Origin: Desulfurella acetivorans A63
GTDB taxonomy: Bacteria; Campylobacterota_A; Desulfurellia; Desulfurellales; Desulfurellaceae
Assembly (NCBI GenBank): GCA_000517565.1
Contig: CP007051.1
Span: forward strand, 434,001 to 498,000
Direction of reading: 5' to 3'
DNA length: 64,000 bases
The notes beneath the pieces were generated by a model. The model was not told where the DNA came from. It did not search any database and saw only the letters and a program-made list of their open reading frames with translations. The translations under genes were made by a program, and so were the position numbers. Positions 7,879 through 55,908 of this stretch are shown here, piece by piece (position 1 is the stretch's first letter; the number at the start of each line of letters is the position of its first letter).

Positions 7879-8157
7879 ATGAAGATTGACGCTTCAGCAA
7901 GAGACTACATTTTAAAAAAAGGTGGTAAAGTCAGCATTACCTACCATGATGTTGCAAATACTTGTATAGATGTAAAAACAATACCTGAAGTGTCAATCGG
8001 TTTACCCCTTAACCCTGATAAGTATATCTTGGTCAATATTGACGGCGTAGATGTTTATATAGATAAATTTGTAGGAGACAGTGAAAATTTCACAATAAAG
8101 CTTAATAAAATTCTTGGGTTTAAATACTTGGTTTTAGATGGATGGAAAACTATCTAA
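7879..8157 (+). CDS. Small HesB-like / CC-Se motif family protein lacking the CC pair
   Basis: A 92-residue protein whose outline resembles the small HesB-like family named for a Cys-Cys or Cys-Sec motif: an N-terminal ARDYILKKGGKVSI block, then PEVSIGLPLN and VDGVDVYIDKF. In that family a redox CC or C-Sec pair follows the first strand; here the region reads DVANTCIDVKT, with only one cysteine. It may have lost the redox site, or the family match may be superficial. It lies 16 bases after cstA, in the same direction, and its last 8 bases overlap the end of convergent rsmE. The family assignment rests on pattern similarity only. Confidence 0.6.
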   Translation: MKIDASARDYILKKGGKVSITYHDVANTCIDVKTIPEVSIGLPLNPDKYILVNIDGVDVYIDKFVGDSENFTIKLNKILGFKYLVLDGWKTI

Positions 8158-8857
8158 GCATTAACTCTATTTGAGATAGTGCTGTAATGGTTGCAACTTC
8201 GGTTTTTAATATATTTGTTGCTAAACTTAGAGTTTTAAAACCCTTTTTTTGTAGGTAAATTATCTCTTTTTCGCTTAATCCACCTTCTGGACCTATTAAA
8301 ATTGCTATGCTGTCAAATTTTTTAATTTCCAAATTCTTGAGTGTCATAGATTTTTCGTTTTCATAAAAGACTATTTTTATTTGTTCTTGTGGGTTAATAT
8401 TAAATAAGTATTGAGGTTTATCAATATTAACTGGGAAAAGTCGTTTACATTGTTTAATAGACTGGATTGCAATTTTTTCCCATTTGGCAATTTTAGATTC
8501 AATGTCTTTAGGTTTCAAAGCGCAATATTGGGATATAGTTGGTATAAATATTGTTGTATTAAGTTGAGATATTGGTTCTATTAACTCATCGATTTTTGAT
8601 AATTTATTTGGCAAACACTGGTAAAGCACTATGCTTGTTTTAGGAATATTTTTTTTAACTTTATTATTAATTACTGCTGTTAAGTATTTTTTTTCAATTT
8701 TGTTGATTGTTGCTACAAAATAATTGCCATTCAAGTCATTAACTTCAATTTTATCATTAATCTTTAATCTTTTGACATTTATTGCATGATGGTATTCTTG
8801 CCCATCTATAATTAAGTAGCCATCTGAAAATTTTCCAATAAAGCATGGCAAGCTCAT
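8150..8857 (-). CDS. rsmE: 16S rRNA (uracil-1498-N3)-methyltransferase
   Basis: SPOUT-class methyltransferase that modifies U1498 of 16S rRNA. The N-terminal PUA-like domain contains DGQEYHHAINVKRLKINDKI; the C-terminal knotted SAM-binding domain has IGPEGGLSEKEI and the closing ILKTEVATITALSQIELM, the standard RsmE endings. I chose the ATG giving MSLPCFIGKF (235 aa). A TTG 39 bases upstream (8896) would add a lysine-rich leader not typical of the family, and neither start has a clear Shine-Dalgarno. It converges with the preceding small gene (8-base overlap). Confidence 0.93.
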   Translation of the reverse strand: MSLPCFIGKFSDGYLIIDGQEYHHAINVKRLKINDKIEVNDLNGNYFVATINKIEKKYLTAVINNKVKKNIPKTSIVLYQCLPNKLSKIDELIEPISQLNTTIFIPTISQYCALKPKDIESKIAKWEKIAIQSIKQCKRLFPVNIDKPQYLFNINPQEQIKIVFYENEKSMTLKNLEIKKFDSIAILIGPEGGLSEKEIIYLQKKGFKTLSLATNILKTEVATITALSQIELMLR

Positions 8858-8914
8858 TATCAAAATCAATTTTACAAAAAAGCTTTTTTTTTGCAAGTAA
8901 AATTCTAAAATTTC

Positions 8915-8943
8915 TTGAGTTTTGAGTACTTTATGAATATAAT
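8915..8943 (+). promoter_or_regulatory. Sigma-70-type promoter for the methyltransferase gene
   Basis: TTGAGT (8915-8920), a 17-base spacer and a perfect TATAAT (8938-8943), 21 bases before the ATG at 8965. A GGGGG Shine-Dalgarno lies between them. Confidence 0.75.
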
Positions 8944-8964
8944 AAATTAAAAAGGGGGATAAAA

Positions 8965-9864
8965 ATGAAAAAAGCTGTCATAGCAATTAATGAAAAAGGT
9001 AACTTATTTGAAGGTAATTTTGAAGATTCTACATTTTATTTGATAGTTAGAGGTAAAAATGAAAGAAAAAAAATACAAGATTGCGCACTAAATTTGAGTG
9101 AGCTAAAAGATTACGTTTTGATAGGTAGAAATGCTTCGGACCAATTTAGAAACATTATCAAAGATAAAAAATTCGATTACATATTTTTAGATTTTTTAAA
9201 TATTGATGAAGCTTTAAATTATTTTGAGGATTATTCAAATAAAATAAAGGTTTTTGATGAAAATACACAAGAGTACGAAGATTGGTTTGAAAAAAATAAG
9301 TATGTTTACTTATCCGAAATAGAAGCACTAAAAAAAGCATTGCCTCTGCATGGCGAAGGTATTGAGATTGGTGTTGGAAGCGGAAAGTTTGCGGTTCCGC
9401 TTGGTATCAAAGTAGGTGTTGAACCCTCAAGAAAGATGGGTGAAATTGCAAAACGAAATGGTATTGATGTAATATTTGGTGTTGCTGAAAATTTACCGAT
9501 TGATAATAATAGTTTTGATTTTGCTTTAATGGCAGTTACAATTTGTTTTGTAAACGATCCACTAAAGAGTCTTAAGGAATGTTATAGGATTTTAAAACCA
9601 AAAGGGCAAATTATAGTAGGTATTGTGGATGCAGATACGCCACTTGGTAAGGTCTATCTGAAAAAAAAGGAAAATAGTGTTTTTTATAAGTATGCGAGGT
9701 TTTTTTCATCAAAGGAAATTTTAGATTTATTTGAAAAGGCGGGGTTTGTTTTTAAACAAGCCTATCAGGTACTTTTTGGTGATTATAGCAAAATAGATCT
9801 TATTCAAGAACCCAAAGAAGGTTGTGGTGAAGGTGGTTTTAGTGTGTTGGTGGGTGAAAAATGA
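8965..9864 (+). CDS. Class I SAM-dependent methyltransferase with an extra N-terminal domain
   Basis: A 299-residue protein with two parts. Residues ~125-260 form a Methyltransf_11-type domain: motif I EIGVGSGKFAVPLG, acidic loop GVEPSRKM, VAENLPIDNNSFDFALM, and SLKECYRILKPKGQIIVGI. Residues 1-110 form a separate alpha/beta domain (MKKAVIAINEKGNLFEGNFE), faintly like the NifX/NifB-type dinitrogenase-cofactor fold; this is a weak impression. The substrate is unknown. The gene has its own promoter, diverges from rsmE and overlaps the next gene by 4 bases (ATGA). The end is glycine-rich (EGCGEGGFSVLVGEK). Confidence 0.85.
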   Translation: MKKAVIAINEKGNLFEGNFEDSTFYLIVRGKNERKKIQDCALNLSELKDYVLIGRNASDQFRNIIKDKKFDYIFLDFLNIDEALNYFEDYSNKIKVFDENTQEYEDWFEKNKYVYLSEIEALKKALPLHGEGIEIGVGSGKFAVPLGIKVGVEPSRKMGEIAKRNGIDVIFGVAENLPIDNNSFDFALMAVTICFVNDPLKSLKECYRILKPKGQIIVGIVDADTPLGKVYLKKKENSVFYKYARFFSSKEILDLFEKAGFVFKQAYQVLFGDYSKIDLIQEPKEGCGEGGFSVLVGEK

Positions 9865-10055
9865 TTTCTATATTAAGTAAGTCTTTTACTTCAACTATCT
9901 ATGATGTTTTTTTTGTAATAATAATTGTATTTTTAAGCGTTAGTATTGTAATGTGGGTAGCACTACCTATAGTGCTTTTATCCATAAGAAATGAACTTAA
10001 AAGACTAAACCAGACAATAAAAGATTATATATACAAAAGGGATATTGGCACTTGA
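9861..10055 (+). CDS. Small single-pass membrane protein
   Basis: A 64-residue protein with one long hydrophobic stretch (residues ~16-42, VFFVIIIVFLSVSIVMWVAL and on) and a basic, amphipathic C-terminal tail (RNELKRLNQTIKDYIYKRD). The start overlaps the end of the methyltransferase gene in an ATGA junction, so the two are probably translated together. No family recognised. The overlap and the clear membrane helix support a real gene. Confidence 0.65.
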   Translation: MISILSKSFTSTIYDVFFVIIIVFLSVSIVMWVALPIVLLSIRNELKRLNQTIKDYIYKRDIGT

Positions 10056-10105
10056 TAAAAAGCTTGATTTATGATAATTTAACGTTAGCAAAAGGGAGGT
10101 AGTAA

Positions 10106-10306
10106 ATGAAAAAAGATATTCATCCAAAGTATGAGCTAACCACGATAGAATGTGCATGTGGAAATAAAGTAGAAGTGCGTTCAACAATTAAGAATCTTAA
10201 GGTTCAAATATGCAATAAGTGTCATCCATTTTTTACTGGTAAAGAAAAAATTGTTGATGAAGGTGGAAGAGTAGACAAGTTCCAGAAAAAATATGCTAAA
10301 AAATAG
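10106..10306 (+). CDS. rpmE: 50S ribosomal protein L31
   Basis: Large-subunit protein of 66 residues. It opens [20 protein letters not shown] and has the zinc-ligand pattern of the C+ form (CACG near residue 16, [10 protein letters not shown] near 35). A GGGAGG Shine-Dalgarno precedes the ATG. The upstream gap of 50 bases contains a plausible but weak promoter (TTGATA at 10052, GATAAT at 10073). It appears to head the long plus-strand run of envelope genes and lies 8 bases ahead of the next gene. With four cysteines this is the zinc-binding version, so a zinc-free paralogue might exist elsewhere. Confidence 0.96.
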
Positions 10307-10314
10307 GAGGTTTT

Positions 10315-10587
10315 ATGGACGGCAAAAGTGATAGCTTTGATATAGCAAAAGAGTTGGATTTAAGGGGTAAAAGTGAAAATGAGGCTTATAGTATATTAGA
10401 TGGAACAATAAAAAGTGCCCAAAAGGGTAAATATGTGCTTGCTTATGTTAATGAATACGATTATATATCTAAAATTGCCCAAAAATTATCACAGCTTGGT
10501 GCTTATATAGAAAATGTACTTAAGAAAAATGAACATGATTTTGTTATAATGATAAAAAATGATGTTAAGCAAACGCAAAACGCATAA
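10315..10587 (+). CDS. TusA/SirA-fold protein without the catalytic cysteine
   Basis: A 90-residue protein whose layout matches the TusA (SirA) sulfur-carrier fold: LDLRGKSENEAYSIL near residue 14, the GKYVLAYVNEYDYISKI strand-helix, and a final strand (NEHDFVIMIKN). In true TusA proteins a Cys-Pro pair follows the DLRG turn and carries the persulfide; here the same place reads RGKSENE, with no cysteine anywhere in the protein. It therefore cannot act as a persulfide carrier by the usual mechanism. An AGGAGG Shine-Dalgarno precedes the ATG, 8 bases after rpmE. Fold assignment by pattern, function unknown. Confidence 0.6.
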   Translation: MDGKSDSFDIAKELDLRGKSENEAYSILDGTIKSAQKGKYVLAYVNEYDYISKIAQKLSQLGAYIENVLKKNEHDFVIMIKNDVKQTQNA

Positions 10588-10592
10588 AAAAA

Positions 10593-10880
10593 ATGGCTTT
10601 GGTTGATATATCCACAGCTACTTTTGATCTATTAAAAGATCTAGGTTTAGAAAGAGCTGTGTATATAGTTAAAGCAAAAGATATTTTCAGACAACTTAAT
10701 TTTGATGAAAACAGTGTTTGTGTTCTTAATTATAAAGAAGGTACTTTAACTTTAGGTGTTTGTAATTCAATATGGCATCAGGAAATAGAAAACATAAAAG
10801 ACATTATCATAAAGAAATTAAATGAATTATCAAGTGATTTGAAATTCGATACGATAGTCGTAAAGGAGATAAATTTATGA
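10593..10880 (+). CDS. DciA-like (DUF721) protein
   Basis: A 95-residue member of the DUF721/DciA-like family: a helical N-terminus, then the strand GTLTLGVCNSIWHQEIENIK, in which the tryptophan-containing segment is the family's most recognisable part, and a closing hydrophobic strand (DTIVVKEI). DciA proteins help load the replicative helicase in bacteria lacking DnaC/DnaI. This short form is near the lower end of the family's size. It starts 5 bases after the previous gene without a visible Shine-Dalgarno. Its TGA overlaps the ATG of an 11-codon remnant reading frame. Confidence 0.65.
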   Translation: MALVDISTATFDLLKDLGLERAVYIVKAKDIFRQLNFDENSVCVLNYKEGTLTLGVCNSIWHQEIENIKDIIIKKLNELSSDLKFDTIVVKEINL

Positions 10881-10912
10881 TTTTAGCACTTGATACAAAA
10901 ATAGGTTATTAA
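10877..10912 (+). pseudogene. 11-codon reading frame resembling the start of tsaB
   Basis: ATG to TAA encodes MILALDTKIGY. The first seven residues are those expected at the N-terminus of TsaB, the t6A partner protein with an ASKHA ATPase fold (typically MILALDTS). It has a strong Shine-Dalgarno (AAGGAGAT), overlaps the previous stop (ATGA), and its TAA lies one base ahead of the bamD ATG. It is either the stump of a deleted tsaB, now perhaps a coupling peptide for bamD, or coincidence. Confidence 0.45.
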
Positions 10913-10913
10913 T

Positions 10914-11675
10914 ATGAAAAAAACCATTATTTACAGTGCGCTGGCTTTGGTAGTTTTTTTTATTTCAAGTTGTTCAACATCTAAAGAGTTAATAAAAACT
11001 GAGCCTGAAAAAAGTGCTTATGAATGGTACAACGAAGGCGTTCAATATTACATAAATCATAACTACAAAGAAGCTGAACACAGTTTATCCATGATAAATC
11101 AACAACACCCAGGTAGTATTTATGGAAAAAAAGCAAGTCTTATTTTAGGGGATGTGTATTATAGTGAAGGTGATTATCTTTTGGCAATCGATGAATATAA
11201 GAAATTTATAGAATTATATCCAAATACAAAAGATGCTATGTTTGCTCAATATAAAATTGCAATGAGTTATTATAAAATGATGAACGGATATAAGCTTGAT
11301 CAAACACCTACAAAAAATGCAATAGAAAATTTTCTCATATTGCTTGATAAATATCCAAACAACCCATATAAGGACCAAGTTTATGATCATTTAACTGAAT
11401 GTGTAAAACAGCTTTATATGCACCAATTGTATATTACAAAGTTTTATTATGATTTAGGAAAATATCGAGCATCTGAAATTGAACTTAACTATATGGCAAA
11501 GCATTTTTCTAATCTAAATTTTAATGATGAAATGTTATATTTACTGGCATCTGTTTATGATCACTTAGGCAAGAAACAGCAAGCTTTAAATTTTTTTGAT
11601 GAGTTAAAAAAGAAGTATCCAAATAGCAAGTATGTTATCCGATTTGAAAAGGAGTTAAATAAGGCAGGCAAATGA
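10914..11675 (+). CDS. bamD: Outer membrane assembly lipoprotein BamD
   Basis: BamD is the essential lipoprotein partner of BamA in outer-membrane protein insertion. The 253-residue product has a lipoprotein signal peptide (hydrophobic LALVVFFISSC, lipobox cysteine at residue 20) followed by tetratricopeptide-like helices. Typical blocks are SAYEWYNEGVQYY, YKEAEHSLSMINQQHPGSIYG, GDYLLAIDEYKKFIELYP and NPYKDQVYDHLTEC. The start lies one base after the tsaB-like remnant, and the end overlaps hsp20 by 4 bases. bamA lies further along the same run. YbgF/CpoB also has TPRs, but the lipobox and the helix pattern of five repeats favour BamD. Confidence 0.88.
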   Translation: MKKTIIYSALALVVFFISSCSTSKELIKTEPEKSAYEWYNEGVQYYINHNYKEAEHSLSMINQQHPGSIYGKKASLILGDVYYSEGDYLLAIDEYKKFIELYPNTKDAMFAQYKIAMSYYKMMNGYKLDQTPTKNAIENFLILLDKYPNNPYKDQVYDHLTECVKQLYMHQLYITKFYYDLGKYRASEIELNYMAKHFSNLNFNDEMLYLLASVYDHLGKKQQALNFFDELKKKYPNSKYVIRFEKELNKAGK

Positions 11676-48852: not shown

Positions 48853-49335
48853 ATGAAAGAGGGGGAAATTTATGAAAAAGCAAAAGGTTATTTTGAATCT
48901 GAAAGTTTTCCGTTACCAAAATCTGTATTTAGGGAATTTTATTCTCAATTAATTAAGCTTTCCGGTTTTGGACTAGGCGGCATATTTGTTTTATCAGGTA
49001 AAAAAGCAGGGGCACGGGCCGCAGTTTACCTCAAAAAATTGGTAGGAGAAAGTTTAACACAAGATGATACTAAAACATGTATAATTGCTGCACTTCAAGC
49101 TTATAACCAAAAAGTAATAGAATTTAATTTAGAAGATAATTTTGCCCTAATTAAAATTGATAATTCTATCTTTGCTGATGGCATAACAAGCAAAAAGCCT
49201 GTTTGTTTACCACTTGGGGGAAGTCTTGCTGGTATGATGGAAACTTTTATGGGTGGCAGCTTTGAACCTAAAGAAATAGAATGTAAAGCATGTGGAGGCC
49301 AATATTGCGTATTTGAAATAAAAAGGAAAAGTTAA
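48853..49335 (+). CDS. V4R (4-vinyl reductase) domain protein
   Basis: A 160-residue stand-alone V4R domain. The family's C-terminal metal-binding-like motif is clear: ECKACGGQYCVFEI at residues ~141-154, preceded by CLPLGGSLAGMMETFMG. V4R domains sense small hydrophobic ligands; they occur in the BchJ vinyl-reduction protein, in Sulfolobus-type regulators and in NtrC-type phenol sensors. Here there is no attached output domain. Located first in the acl locus, before an HTH-cupin regulator, it may be a ligand-sensing partner. A GGAGGGGG Shine-Dalgarno precedes the ATG; a 26-base gap follows it. Confidence 0.82.
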   Translation: MKEGEIYEKAKGYFESESFPLPKSVFREFYSQLIKLSGFGLGGIFVLSGKKAGARAAVYLKKLVGESLTQDDTKTCIIAALQAYNQKVIEFNLEDNFALIKIDNSIFADGITSKKPVCLPLGGSLAGMMETFMGGSFEPKEIECKACGGQYCVFEIKRKS

Positions 49336-49361: not shown

Positions 49362-49907
49362 ATGAATTTACAAGCTGAAAAGATTAAAATTCAAAGAAAA
49401 AAAGTTGGTTTGACGATTAAAGAGCTTGCAAAAAAAATTGGCTATACGGATGCTTACATTTCTCAAATTGAGAATTGCAAGGTAGTACCATCTATTAAGG
49501 TATTAAAAAAGATTGTAGATACGCTTGATCTAAGTTTTAGAGATATTCTGATTTCTAATAGCCAACAAGAAAAGTTTTTTTTCAAAAAAAGTGAGTATTT
49601 AGAAATAAGACGTCAAAATAATTCAATTGAAGAGAAGTTGTTATGTTCAAATCTTTCGTTTAAGAAAATGCAACCAACATACAAAATTATTAAACCTAAT
49701 ACTGAGTGTATAATTAATCTAAAGCCTAAAGACGAAAAATTTGGATATATTTTAAAAGGTATGATTGAGTTAGACTTAGATAATAAAATTATTATTTTAA
49801 ATGAACATGATAGTTTTTATATAACATATCATAATTACATTACAATAAAAAATACAAACACAATTAATGCTGAATTAATTTGCATGGATTTACCACCAAA
49901 TATTTGA
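49362..49907 (+). CDS. XRE-family HTH regulator with C-terminal cupin
   Basis: A 181-residue transcription regulator. Residues ~5-60 form a Cro/XRE helix-turn-helix (KIQRKKVGLTIKELAKKIGY, then AYISQIENCKVVPSIKVLKK). Residues ~110-178 form a small cupin-like barrel (FGYILKGMIELDLDNKIIIL; NEHDSFYITYHNYITIKN). The metal-binding histidines of classical cupins are mostly absent, so the barrel probably binds a ligand without metal. Such regulators often control nearby catabolic or amine-metabolism genes. In this place it is a good candidate for controlling the crotonase-acl genes behind it (6-base gap). Confidence 0.88.
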   Translation: MNLQAEKIKIQRKKVGLTIKELAKKIGYTDAYISQIENCKVVPSIKVLKKIVDTLDLSFRDILISNSQQEKFFFKKSEYLEIRRQNNSIEEKLLCSNLSFKKMQPTYKIIKPNTECIINLKPKDEKFGYILKGMIELDLDNKIIILNEHDSFYITYHNYITIKNTNTINAELICMDLPPNI

Positions 49908-49913
49908 GGTTAT

Positions 49914-50681
49914 ATGGAGAGCATTATTATTAAAAAAAATGAACTTATAAGTACAATAATACTTAACAAACCAAAGCAGTTTAATGCTTTTGATATTGAT
50001 CTTGCAACGGATTTAAATAATGCACTTAAAGAACTTGATAAAGATGATTCAACTAGAGTAATTATAATTCAAGGTAGTAAAAAGTATTTTAGTGTAGGTA
50101 TTTCTTTAGAAGAATTACAAAACAAGAGCGTTCAACAAGCAAAAGAATTTGTATATGCCATGAATGAGTTTTATCATACAATTCATCACTTAAGAAAACC
50201 TACGATTGCAAGTGTTAGTGGATATGCTGTAGCAAATGGTGCTGGACTTTTGTTTGCATGCGATTTGGCTGTATGCTCAAAATCTACTAAAATTGGTATA
50301 ACAGCAATTAATGTGGGACTTTGTGGTATTGGAGCAAGTTTGCCTTTGAGGTATTCTTTGAGCAAAAAAATAATAATGGAAATGTTGCTAACTGGAAAAG
50401 TACTAAATGCCTATCAAGCAAAAAGAATGTTAATGGTTAACAAAGTAGTTGATGGAAAATTTCTCGAAGAGGAAACCTATAAGCTGGCTTTTAATATTGC
50501 TCAAAAAAATAGTAGTGCAATTGAAATAACTAAAATTGGTATTGAAAATCTAACTGATATGGAATTTGATAAGGCAGTTGATTATTCAAGTGATTTATTT
50601 AGCTATATTGTGAACCTAGAAGAGACAAAATCAACTTTAATAAAAAAAATAAATAAAAAAAGAGGGGGTAAAAATGATTAG
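49914..50681 (+). CDS. Enoyl-CoA hydratase/isomerase (crotonase-fold) family protein
   Basis: A 255-residue crotonase-superfamily protein. It has TIILNKPKQFNAFDIDLATD at the start, VIIIQGSKKYFSVGISLEEL (first oxyanion-hole region) near residue 45, and TIASVSGYAVANGAGLLFAC (second) near 98. In true hydratases two glutamates supply acid/base catalysis; the second usually lies in an EIxxGxxPxxG block, but here that block reads GITAINVGLCGIGASLPL, with no glutamate. So another CoA-thioester reaction or a binding role is likely. It is between the HTH-cupin gene and aclB; a link with citryl-CoA or acetyl-CoA chemistry is speculative. Confidence 0.85.
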   Translation: MESIIIKKNELISTIILNKPKQFNAFDIDLATDLNNALKELDKDDSTRVIIIQGSKKYFSVGISLEELQNKSVQQAKEFVYAMNEFYHTIHHLRKPTIASVSGYAVANGAGLLFACDLAVCSKSTKIGITAINVGLCGIGASLPLRYSLSKKIIMEMLLTGKVLNAYQAKRMLMVNKVVDGKFLEEETYKLAFNIAQKNSSAIEITKIGIENLTDMEFDKAVDYSSDLFSYIVNLEETKSTLIKKINKKRGGKND

Positions 50682-50759: not shown

Positions 50760-52101
50760 ATGGCTGAAAGAGGGATTAGAGAATTTGATGCAAAAAGGAT
50801 TTTGCACAAAAATTGGGAAAGTTATTTTGGGAACAAATTAATCTACGATTTTAAATCTTTACTCGTAACACAACATACTAATTTCGAAAGCATGGTTTCA
50901 GAATATACATGGTTGGATAAAGTACCTTTAGTTGTTAAACCAGATATGTTGTTTGGAAATCGTGGTAAACTAGGACTTGTTTATTTTAAAAAGGAAACAC
51001 CTGGTGATATATTCTTAAAAGATGCTATTGAGTGGATAAAACAAAAAAGTAAACAAAGCATTAGCATTAAAGGCACAAAAGGTTATTTAACGCATTTTCT
51101 AATTGAGCCTTTTTTGAAACATTCAACTAAAGATGAATCGTTTGTAGCATTTTCTATGGATGAAGATGCAGACAATATCTACATGTCTGCTTACGGAGGA
51201 ATTGACATAGAAGAACATTGGGATAAAACTACATGTTGTAAAATACCCATATTTGCAAGTAAAGAAGAAATTATTTCTATTATAAATTCCAATATTCCAA
51301 GTGAGATCCAAAATAAATTAGTGTATGCTGAGTTTGTTGCAAACGCCTACCAATTTTTTAAAGATTTGCATTTTACATATTTTGAGATCAACCCATTAGT
51401 TATTTTTGATAATAGGGTTTTTGTTCTTGATTTAGTGGCAAAGGTTGATGATACCGCAATTTATTTAGTGGGAAAAAAATGGGGTGATATAGAATTTACA
51501 CAAGGTTTTTCTAGGCCATTAAGTAAAGAAGAAAAGTACATTAAAGAGCTTGATAAAAACTCTGGTGCGTCTTTGAAATTAACAATTTTAAACCCAAAGG
51601 GTAAAATCTGGTTATTAATAGCTGGAGGTGGAGCTTCTGTTGTTTATGCTGATGCTGTTGCAAACCTTGGGTACGCAGATGAACTTGCAAACTATGGGGA
51701 GTATTCTGGTAATCCATCTAGGTCGGAAGTAAGGGAATATACTGAAACTATTCTTAATTTGATGACAAAAGAAAGCATAAATAATCAGAAAAAAATATTA
51801 CTGATTGGTGGTGCAATAGCAAATTTCACGGATGTTTCCAAAACGTTCGATGAAATTATTGATGCATTTGTTAAATATTCTGAAAAACTTAAACAAACAG
51901 GTGTTAAAATATATGTTAGAAGGGGAGGGCCAAAATTATTTACAAGGTTTAAATAAAATTAAAAATGCTGCTCTTGAATTAGGTTTAGATATAGAGGTTT
52001 ATTGTCCAGAAGTGTTTATTACAGATATAGTAGATAGAGCTATTTTAAATAAAGAAATAGAAAGTGGGGTAAAAAATGAATCAAGAATACACATTGTTTG
52101 A
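50760..52101 (+). pseudogene. aclB: ATP-citrate lyase, ATP-grasp subunit (AclB), broken by a +1 frameshift
   Basis: Small subunit of ATP-citrate lyase, which supplies ATP- and citrate-binding parts for citrate + CoA + ATP to acetyl-CoA + oxaloacetate. It starts MAERGIREFDAKRIL behind AAAGGAGGGGG. The first frame (to 51956) has the ATP-grasp domain (PLVVKPDMLFGNRGKLGLV; HFTYFEINPLVIFDN; the CoA-ligase-like IWLLIAGGGASVVYADAVA) and ends prematurely at KIYVRRGGPKLFTRFK. The expected continuation, NYLQGLNKIKNAALELGLDI, is in the next frame and runs to a stop at 52101. Dropping one A from the AAAA at 51932-51935 restores RRGGPNYLQGL and gives ~446 residues. Without correction the last ~50 residues are lost. 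Confidence 0.86.
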
Positions 52102-53933
52102 TAGAGGAACACAGGCAATATTTTGGAATTTAAATTTTGATGCTATCCAAAGAATGCTGGATTATGATTATATGATAGGTAGAAATCCAAGCGTAGTAGC
52201 TATAGTTGGACTAAATTCTCAAAGGAATTTTGAAAAGTTTTTTTATGGAAACAAAGAAATACTTATACCAATATATGATTCTTTAAAAAAAGCATCGGTT
52301 TTTCATCCTCAAGCATCTGTTTTACTTAATTTTGCATCATTTCGAAGTGCATACGAGATTACAAAGGAAGCATTAGCATTAACAAATATTAAAGTTATAG
52401 TAATAACAGCTGAAGGTGTACCTGAAAGATTTGCAAGAGAATTATCAATTCAAGCTAAAAAATTAAATAAGTGGATTATAGGTCCAGCATCAGTAGGTGG
52501 TATAAAACCCTATGCTTTTAAGATTGCAAATACGGGTGGTGCAGTTGAAAACATAAAACTTGCAAAATTATTTAAAGAAGGAAGCGTAGGTATAGTAACT
52601 CGCTCTGGTGGCCTATTAAATGAACTTTTTAATATTGTTTCTCAATATGCTGATGGTGTAGCAGAAGGTATAGCAATTGGGGGCGATAAATTTCCAGGGA
52701 CAGAGTTTGTTGATCATCTAATTAGGTTTGAGAGAAATCCGAAGATTAAATTTTCTATAATGATAGGCGAGGTTGGTGGTAAAAGTGAGTATAAAGTTAT
52801 TGAAGCAATAAAGAACAAATTAATAACAAAACCAATTATTGGCTGGTGTATTGGAACTGTCAGTGATTATTTTGGAGGTTCAATTCAGTTTGGACATGCA
52901 GGCGCAAAAGCTGATAAAGCATCTGAAAGTGCTGTTCAAAAAAATAAAGCAATGAAACAAGCTGGCATATTTGTTCCAAACGGTTTTAATCAATTCCCAT
53001 ATCTTGTAAAAGAGCTTTACGAATCATTAACAGATAATACAGTAGGTAACTCAAGCCAAGATATTAATATTATAGATTTACCTTTAGATTGCGAAACATT
53101 AGTGAAGACAAACAAAGCAAGAAAAAAAACACACTTTGTATGCACTATATCCAATGATACAAAAGAAGAAATTACTTATTGTAATATGCCTATTACTGAG
53201 ATTGTAGAAAAAAAATACAGTAACTGATATTATTGGCTTGTTGTGGTTTAAACAAAAGTTTCCTGTATGGGCAAGTAATTTTATAGATTTGATTATAAAA
53301 CTAACAGCTGATCATGGGCCAGCTGTTAGTGGTGCCCATAATACCAGAGTTACTGCGAGAGCTGGGAAAGATTTAACTGCTAGCATTGCAAGCGGTATAC
53401 TAACTATAGGACCTAGGTTTGGTGGCGCAATAGATGCAGCTGCTAAATATTTTAAAATGGCATATGAAAACAAAATGGAACCAGAAGATTTTGTAGAATA
53501 TATGAAAAATGTAGAAAAGATACCTATACCAGGCATAGGGCATAGAATAAAGTCAACTAAAAATCCAGATAAACGAGTTGGTTTACTTAAAAATTATGTT
53601 TTTAATAAATTTCCCACTTGCAAATTGATAAATTATGCGTTAGATGTTGAAAAAGTTACTACATCTAAAAAAGAAAATTTGATTTTAAATGTTGATGGTG
53701 CAATTGGCGTTTCGCTCGTAGATATGTTTTGGGCTTTAAATTACAAAAATAAAGATATTGACAATCTTATCCAAAGGGGTGCTTTCAATGCTTTTTTTGT
53801 TATTGGAAGAACTATAGGTTTAATAGGTCATTATTTAGACGAAAAACGGTTAAATATGCCATTGTATCGTCATCCGGTAGATGATATTTTATATGATGAA
53901 GAAAGTCCAATTGAGTATAGCCAGGAAGTTTAA
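52076..53933 (+). pseudogene. aclA: ATP-citrate lyase, CoA-ligase/citryl-CoA-lyase subunit (AclA), broken by a frameshift
   Basis: Large subunit of ATP-citrate lyase. The first frame (52076-53227, 383 aa) begins NQEYTLFDRGTQAIFWNL, has VGIVTRSGGLLNE and the phospho-histidine motif SIQFGHAGAKADKAS near residue 273, and ends after TEIVEKKYSN. The second frame (open from 53208, to 53933) continues VTDIIGLLWFKQKFP and carries the citrate-synthase-like lyase domain: ADHGPAVSGAHNT, IGPRFGGAIDAAAKY, catalytic IGHRIKS, EKVTTSKKENLILNVDGAIG and YRHPVDDI. Restoring the frame needs one base fewer in the A8 run at 53208-53215, or two extra bases near 53219. The second part has no ribosome site or ATG. 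The start overlaps the aclB end by 26 bases. Confidence 0.86.
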
Positions 53934-54084: not shown

Positions 54085-54549
54085 GTGGATATCAAAACAC
54101 TCAAAGACATCATTAAAATTGTAGAAAATAGTCAGTTTGTAGAGTTTAGCTACAAAGATGATGAGCTTGAAATTACGTTAAAAAAGAAAGAAGCTTTTCC
54201 CGAAAGTGTTGTAGGCCAGGACAATCTTAGAGTTACTGAAGTAGTTTCACAATACCCTACGCAGTCTATAGTTGCAAAAGGCGCTCAAGAATCAGAGAAA
54301 GACCCTAATTTAATTGAAATAAGGTCTCCAATGGTAGCAACGTTTTATAGAGCACCAGCACCAGATGCAAAGCCATACGTTGAGGAAGGACAAAAAGTAA
54401 AAAAAGGCGAAGTGCTTTGTATTTTAGAGGCAATGAAAATAATGAACGAACTTGAAGCTGAATTTGATTGCACCATAGAAAAGATTCTTGTTGAAAACGC
54501 TCAAAAAGTAGAATTTGACCAACCTTTATTTTTAGTAAGAAAGGGTTAA
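54085..54549 (+). CDS. accB: Biotin carboxyl carrier protein of acetyl-CoA carboxylase
   Basis: Carries CO2 on biotin between AccC and the carboxyltransferase; 154 aa from the GTG at 54085. The N-terminus [20 protein letters not shown] and [15 protein letters not shown] are typical of AccB. The biotinyl domain ends with [18 protein letters not shown], the biotinylated lysine near residue 118. I prefer the GTG because AAGGAGG precedes it at the right spacing; an upstream TTG would add a hydrophobic, non-family stretch and lie over the promoter. It is paired with accC by a 9-base gap. Confidence 0.95.
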
Positions 54550-54558
54550 TTGTAAGGT

Positions 54559-55908
54559 ATGTTTAAGAAAATATTTATTGCAAATAGAGGAGAAATTGCT
54601 TTAAGGATAATTAGAGCTTGCAAAGAGCTTGGTATTAAAACTTGCATTGGCTACTCAGTTGAAGATAAAAACTCAATACCTGTTATGCTTGCAGATGAGG
54701 CTATCTGCATAGGTCCAGCTCAATCTATGCAAAGTTATTTGAATTTATTTTCTTTAGCTCAAGCTATTCACAATTCAGGGGCAGACGCAGTACATCCTGG
54801 ATATGGTTTTCTAAGCGAAAATCCTACATTTGTTAAAATTTGCAATGATTTAGATGTTACTTTTATAGGTCCAGATGAAGAAACAATCGCGCGTCTTGCG
54901 GATAAGTCTAAAGTAAAACAAATATTAAAACAAAATAATATGCCTACGATACCAGGCAGTGATGGTGCGGTAAAAAATCTTGATGAATTAAAATCTGTAG
55001 CAAACACAATAGGCTATCCAATACTTCTTAAGGCATCCTGGGGCGGCGGTGGTAGAGGTATGAGGGTTGTTCGAAGTGAAAATGAGTTGGTTAATGAATT
55101 CAATGCTGCTCAAAGTGAAGCCAAAAGTTCATTTGGCAGAGAAGATATATATGTAGAAAAATTTATAGAACATCCAAGACACATTGAGGCTCAGGTCATT
55201 GGAGATAAATTTGGCAATATTGTGCATGTTGGAGAAAGAGATTGTACACTTCAAAGAAGGCACCAAAAGCTACTTGAAGAATCTCCAAGTCCCTATTTAG
55301 ATGAACAAAAAAGGGCAGAATTTTTAGAAACGGCTGTTAGGGCAGCTTCAATATTAAAATATTGGAATGCAGGCACGCTTGAATTTTTATTTGATGAAGA
55401 AAAAAATTTTTATTTTATTGAAATTAATACACGTATTCAGGTAGAACATCCCGTAAGTGAAACAGTTTACGATGTAGATTTAATAAAAGAACAAATTATG
55501 GTTGCTTATGGTTATGAATTATCATTTAAACAAGAGGATCTAAAACCAAAATGTTGTGCAATGGAATGCCGAATAAATGCAGAAGATCCAGAAAAATTTA
55601 TACCTTCGCCTGGTAAAATCGAATTTTTATTTGTACCCAGTGGTGCTCATACTAGAGTAGATTCACATATTTATTGTGGTTATAATGTAAGTCCATACTA
55701 CGATTCTATGATAGCAAAATTAATAATAAGTGGTAAAACTCGTGAAGAAGTTCGCACAAGAATGTTAAATAGCTTAAGTGAGTTTAAAATAGAAGGGATA
55801 AAAACAAACATAAATTTTTTCCAAAAACTGCTATCTTCTGAAGATTTTATAAACAATACTTATGACACAAACTTTATAGATAGAATTTTTTTAAATAATC
55901 ACAAGTAA
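54559..55908 (+). CDS. accC: Biotin carboxylase
   Basis: ATP-grasp enzyme carboxylating the biotin of AccB, 449 aa, normal length. Blocks: KIFIANRGEIALRIIRACKE at the N-terminus, ADAVHPGYGFLSENPTF near 75, the glycine-rich loop KASWGGGGRGMRVV near 160, HIEAQVIGD, RDCTLQRRHQKLLEESP, FYFIEINTRIQVEHPVSE with catalytic residues near 290, and MECRINAEDPEKFIPSPG. Though a pyruvate-carboxylase-type role would also use such a subunit, pairing with a canonical AccB supports acetyl-CoA carboxylase. Its end overlaps that of trpS by 10 bases. Confidence 0.96.
   Translation: MFKKIFIANRGEIALRIIRACKELGIKTCIGYSVEDKNSIPVMLADEAICIGPAQSMQSYLNLFSLAQAIHNSGADAVHPGYGFLSENPTFVKICNDLDVTFIGPDEETIARLADKSKVKQILKQNNMPTIPGSDGAVKNLDELKSVANTIGYPILLKASWGGGGRGMRVVRSENELVNEFNAAQSEAKSSFGREDIYVEKFIEHPRHIEAQVIGDKFGNIVHVGERDCTLQRRHQKLLEESPSPYLDEQKRAEFLETAVRAASILKYWNAGTLEFLFDEEKNFYFIEINTRIQVEHPVSETVYDVDLIKEQIMVAYGYELSFKQEDLKPKCCAMECRINAEDPEKFIPSPGKIEFLFVPSGAHTRVDSHIYCGYNVSPYYDSMIAKLIISGKTREEVRTRMLNSLSEFKIEGIKTNINFFQKLLSSEDFINNTYDTNFIDRIFLNNHK

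Follow-up and report, generated by a model that had tools for sequence, protein, structure and literature searches.

The window analysed here is a stretch of 64 kb (G000:C1:434001-498000) from the 1.82 Mb genome of Desulfurella acetivorans. A published primer for the D. acetivorans gene AHF97589 (PMC11861179) has one exact match in this genome and none in D. amilsii or in a further Desulfurella genome, G002, which identifies the species. Between mnmA and accB-accC it carries a five-gene cassette on the forward strand, made up of genes for a V4R-domain protein, an HTH regulator and an enoyl-CoA hydratase family member, followed by aclB and aclA, the genes for the small and large subunits of ATP-citrate lyase (Table 1). 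We recognise the last two by their domains and by their motifs: PF24948, PF16114, PF00549 and PF00285 all score above cut-off, the lyase part in another frame, and FGHAGA, RRGGPN, IGHRIKS and YRHPVDD are all kept, each in its relevant frame. The best matches in the PDB are the ATP-citrate lyases of Methanothrix (Methanosaeta) concilii and human. Compared with the heteromeric AclB/AclA enzyme of M. concilii, which provides the closest solved structures (6hxi, 6znw), the D. acetivorans genes have the same domain order, the same FGHAGA, IGHR, YRHP and RRGGPN motifs and roughly 47-49% identity; what sets them apart from the M. concilii enzyme is that both subunits are frame-broken. The GC and GC3 of the cassette are those of its surroundings and thus do not point to a foreign source in the very recent past.

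Table 1. Features of the ATP-citrate lyase cassette in the D. acetivorans window.
Feature	Position	Strand	Evidence or state
V4R-domain protein	48853-49335	+	intact in D. acetivorans
HTH regulator	49362-49907	+	intact in D. acetivorans
enoyl-CoA hydratase family gene	49914-50681	+	intact in D. acetivorans; frameshifted in sister genome G002
aclB (small subunit), in-frame part to RRGGP: ATP-grasp and citrate-binding	50760..51932	+	PF24948 E 5e-67; PF16114 E 2e-63; 6hxi_A E 7e-106
aclB lesion, AAAA; relatives imply one base fewer (+1)	51932..51935	+	alignment with G002, G020 and L039
aclB remainder, NYLQGLNKIK..., out of frame	51934..52084	+	separate match to PF16114 positions 119-175
aclA (large subunit), in-frame CoA-ligase part to EKKYSN and TGA; phospho-His FGHAGA	52076..53227	+	PF00549; 6hxi_B / 6znw_B E 2e-113
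A8 run in aclA, E-K-K in frame, not the lesion	53208..53215	+	GAAAAGAAA in G002 aligned
aclA lesion, net -2 bases between AGT (Ser) and GAT (Asp)	53219..53225	+	spacing in G002, G020, L039, M. concilii and human
aclA remainder: citryl-CoA lyase domain, IGHRIKS and YRHPVDD, out of frame	53226..53933	+	PF00285 E 9e-22; 6hxi_B E 6e-81
accB-accC, right border of cassette	54085..55908	+	in all three Desulfurella genomes

The breaks can be placed by alignment with relatives. The same cassette stands at the same site in a sister Desulfurella genome, G002; among the 25 phylum genomes compared, the only other one with an ATP-citrate lyase above cut-off is G020, and a contig scan for relatives of the operon gave one, L039, a Sulfurospirillum MAG. 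At the end of its in-frame part the aclB of D. acetivorans reads GGGCCAAAATTAT where G002 reads GGGCCTAATTAT, so that D. acetivorans has one base extra. The G002 frame continues as RRGGPNYLQGL; RRGGPNY is also present in G020 and L039, and RRGGPN is invariant among the relatives. The cut falls at the end of this motif, which aligns with residues 378-383 of human ATP-citrate lyase and contains Arg379, which we take to be a citrate ligand of the human enzyme. The gain of one base strips about 40 C-terminal residues from the protein, just past RRGGPN.

In aclA, the frame is lost after EKKYS, and AACT, four bases, stands where G002, G020 and L039 have six. The spacing from Ser/Thr to Asp is two residues in all three (YT-IC-D in G002, YS-IA-D in G020, YS-LG-D in L039), and M. 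concilii and human are alike, which makes the lesion a net loss of two bases outside any homopolymer; reading it as +1 would also require the loss of a codon. The original prediction had both subunit genes broken, with aclB leaving its frame at RRGGP and resuming as NYLQGL around the AAAA run, aclA leaving its frame after EKKYS, and the signature residues FGHAGA, IGHRIKS and YRHPVDD conserved. We find all of this, with one frame-breaking indel per gene in the assembly, so that neither aclB nor aclA is open throughout. The one correction concerns the placement of the aclA break in the A8 run. We considered a change in homopolymer length there as the cause and rejected it: the run encodes conserved residues and matches GAAAAGAAA of G002, and the two missing bases lie 3' of it. 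Removing a base from each run would therefore not bring back the aclA spacing of the relatives.

The position of the aclA cut also bears on whether the pieces could be working proteins in their own right, with aclA yielding separate synthetase-like and lyase subunits as in the two-enzyme system of Hydrogenobacter. A TTG at 53238 does start a frame of 231 residues spanning most of the lyase domain, but no ribosome-binding site is visible ahead of it, and aclB is broken as well. Furthermore, by comparison with the lyase-module chain of the human enzyme (6hxk) and with citryl-CoA lyase (6hxp), the cut lies some 35 residues into the citryl-CoA lyase module: the alignment of 6hxk with the aclA remainder does not start until residue 40 of 6hxk, and in 6hxp about 50 residues precede the match. 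The broken pieces are thus not natural domains, and we regard functional fission as the least credible of the alternatives, with hardly any weight.

Could the breaks instead be errors of sequencing or assembly, the acl genes of the living strain being intact? The change in aclB amounts to a single base within a short run of A and, taken alone, could be an error, and a few ambiguous bases (N) do occur in the D. acetivorans assembly about 20 kb beyond the window. Against this stands the local rate of frameshifts. In the surrounding 244 kb, none of the 110 D. acetivorans genes with D. amilsii orthologues is frameshifted, in a tblastn comparison whose positive control picked up the split of aclA against each of the two intact relatives, and that of aclB against one of them; this is despite the 40 A/T runs of at least 8 and the 1072 runs of exactly 4 that the intact open reading frames of the window contain. 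Between D. acetivorans and G002 (about 117 genes), mid-gene, gap-free frame breaks are confined to aclB, aclA and the hydratase gene, and all other frame changes sit either at N runs marking assembly gaps or close to the called ends of genes. The acl frames are thus disrupted relative to intact relatives beyond the local error rate. The aclA change, moreover, is a loss of two bases outside a homopolymer, and the error reading requires a coincidence, namely that two neighbouring genes of an operon also damaged in the sister species each picked up an error independently. We consider such an artefact improbable, if the strongest of the competing accounts.

The damage in G002 is of a different kind. 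There the hydratase gene has lost one base (a -1 frameshift), aclB is open except for one N gap, and aclA contains an in-frame TAG at codon 335, although all these lesions are read from a single assembly of G002, which is fragmented and has N gaps. Substitutions S88F, G276R and G413R fall at positions that are invariant in G020, L039, M. concilii and human; G276R turns FGHAGA into FGHARA, beside the phospho-His, and G413R turns ADHGP into ADHRP. D. acetivorans has private changes of its own at conserved sites, P46L in AclA and G365E in AclB. We find no disabling lesion common to the two, from which it follows that the inactivations in D. acetivorans and G002 are independent. A comparison with close relatives had been proposed along with the original prediction, and its outcome strengthens the case for recent loss. 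The last part of G002 aclA is also joined to a methylase-like fragment (L028:13487-14066, on G002:C53) that replaces about 270 bases beside an N gap; this segment occurs once in G002 and in neither D. acetivorans nor D. amilsii, and it is either a real insertion or an assembly chimera.

How recent the loss is can be gauged from the pattern of substitution. Between D. acetivorans and G002, dN/dS is 0.08 for both acl genes, the median over all genes compared being 0.081, which implies that purifying selection held until recently; any relaxation of selection since inactivation would be too recent to show. As a rough bound, neutral evolution accounts for at most about 5% of the total acl divergence if the functional dN/dS is at least 0.03, as it is for accC. 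The cassette is at the same time unusually diverged between the two genomes, with dS of 0.70-0.96 (0.73 for aclA, 0.94 for aclB) against a median of 0.185, which puts the split of its two alleles before that of most of the genome; recombination with another Desulfurella may be the reason. A few other islands, for example 8150-11675, are similarly diverged from G002, and the divergence islands suggest mosaic recombination among Desulfurella.

Undiminished purifying selection up to recent times is also what one would expect if the breaks were bypassed, polymerase slippage on the A8 run restoring aclA and frameshifting or tolerance rescuing aclB, so that active enzyme is made; a transcript one A shorter at A8 would indeed be open to the end of aclA. 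However, the slipped aclA product would read EKNTVTD, without the conserved Tyr-Ser and with the spacing one residue short. A run of eight A is at the lower limit for slippage, and a run of four, as in aclB, is far below it; the aclB run is not slippery, which makes bypass unlikely. Nor does the aclB site resemble any known programmed +1 site, and the sister species breaks the operon elsewhere. We rate bypass as very unlikely, below an artefact. The original prediction had left recent decay and bypass side by side; the different lesions of G002 speak for the former, and the short run in aclB against the latter.

Drawing these lines together, we read aclB and aclA of D. acetivorans as a recently inactivated pseudogene pair, with a probability of roughly 0.85 judged from the assemblies. 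Because both subunits are broken, functional ATP-citrate lyase should not be made, and the question becomes what would cleave citrate in its place. The D. acetivorans genome contains three full citrate synthase genes, and a search of it found no second ATP-citrate lyase and no citryl-CoA lyase. Two loci (G000:C1:737075 and 1275410) are alike in their weak PF16114 score and in their 401-residue frame; both are probably genes for succinyl-CoA synthetase beta, and the two may be nearly identical to each other. The inventory, citrate synthase without an intact ATP-citrate lyase or citryl-CoA lyase, is that of an organism running the reversed oxidative TCA cycle, and it bears out the suggestion made from the window that the lineage is of the D. 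acetivorans type, running citrate synthase backwards, with citrate synthase to be sought elsewhere in the genome. It also agrees with the literature on the same species: citrate synthase is the citrate-cleaving enzyme of D. acetivorans (PMC9768450, PMC11861179), the three genes match the published count, and D. acetivorans and Hippea maritima run the reversed oxidative TCA cycle (PMC9768450, PMC12137691).

Published statements about the marker enzyme itself fit the sequences less well. A review of the discovery of the reversed cycle describes D. acetivorans as being without ATP-citrate lyase genes (PMC10173188), whereas we find them nearly complete but broken, and the D. amilsii genome paper credits that species with the full set of reductive TCA genes, ATP citrate lyase being listed in the scheme (PMC5317093; the paper also puts D. 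multipotens RH-8 at 98.6% ANI to D. acetivorans). Both statements on the enzyme are at odds with the sequences, in which D. amilsii is without ATP-citrate lyase and D. acetivorans has relics. A full-text search, outside which the primary papers (Science 2018, Nature 2021) lie, gave no published mention of a frameshift or pseudogene for Desulfurella citrate lyase. Losses of the same enzyme within the same NCBI phylum have been described for Campylobacter, Helicobacteraceae and Arcobacter, where they are tied to heterotrophy (PMC5401914); D. acetivorans differs from these in that it is still capable of autotrophic growth and its relic is nearly whole.

A simple sequence of events would account for these observations. 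The one-base gain would truncate AclB just after RRGGPN, and the two-base loss would part the CoA-ligase portion of aclA from its citryl-CoA lyase portion, leaving citrate to be cleaved by citrate synthase in reverse. The operon would have been under purifying selection until recently and then inactivated independently in D. acetivorans and G002, presumably because cleavage by citrate synthase spares ATP, so that at high CO2 the cell can do without ATP-citrate lyase. Given the different lesions in the G002 operon, the loss looks both recent and repeated.

Whether "loss" is the right word for the lineage as a whole is a separate matter. Genome searches found no ATP-citrate lyase above cut-off in D. 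amilsii, nor in any of 16 genomes from the neighbouring family. Given these absences, Desulfurella may have acquired the enzyme for a time only, on top of a reversed cycle that is older, instead of now losing an enzyme inherited from its ancestors. The proposal that the window records loss of the marker enzyme therefore stands as regards recent loss, with the qualification that what is seen is possibly the end of a transient acquisition. At the same site in D. amilsii, from mnmA to accB (L040:7437-9207), we observe methylcitrate-cycle gene fragments, namely a PrpD N-terminal domain (PF03972) and methylisocitrate lyase-like pieces, that are apparently decayed.

It was also anticipated that such a relic may mislead marker surveys, and in our hands profile searches do score the relics above their cut-offs in a species whose genes are described as absent (PMC10173188); marker-gene surveys can be misled by relics of this kind. 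At a broader level, the finding bears on the origin of the reversed oxidative TCA cycle, which may be ancient or may have replaced the ATP-citrate lyase cycle secondarily. With a recently dead, near-complete operon in the model species and different lesions in its sister, the switch can be dated and tested. We tentatively suggest, at somewhat short of even odds, that two still-autotrophic Desulfurella (G002 presumably so, judging by its genus) have independently and recently inactivated their acl operon, that in present-day populations the ATP-dependent enzyme is being displaced, or outlived, by the citrate synthase route, and that the ATP cost of citrate cleavage may thus be visible to selection.
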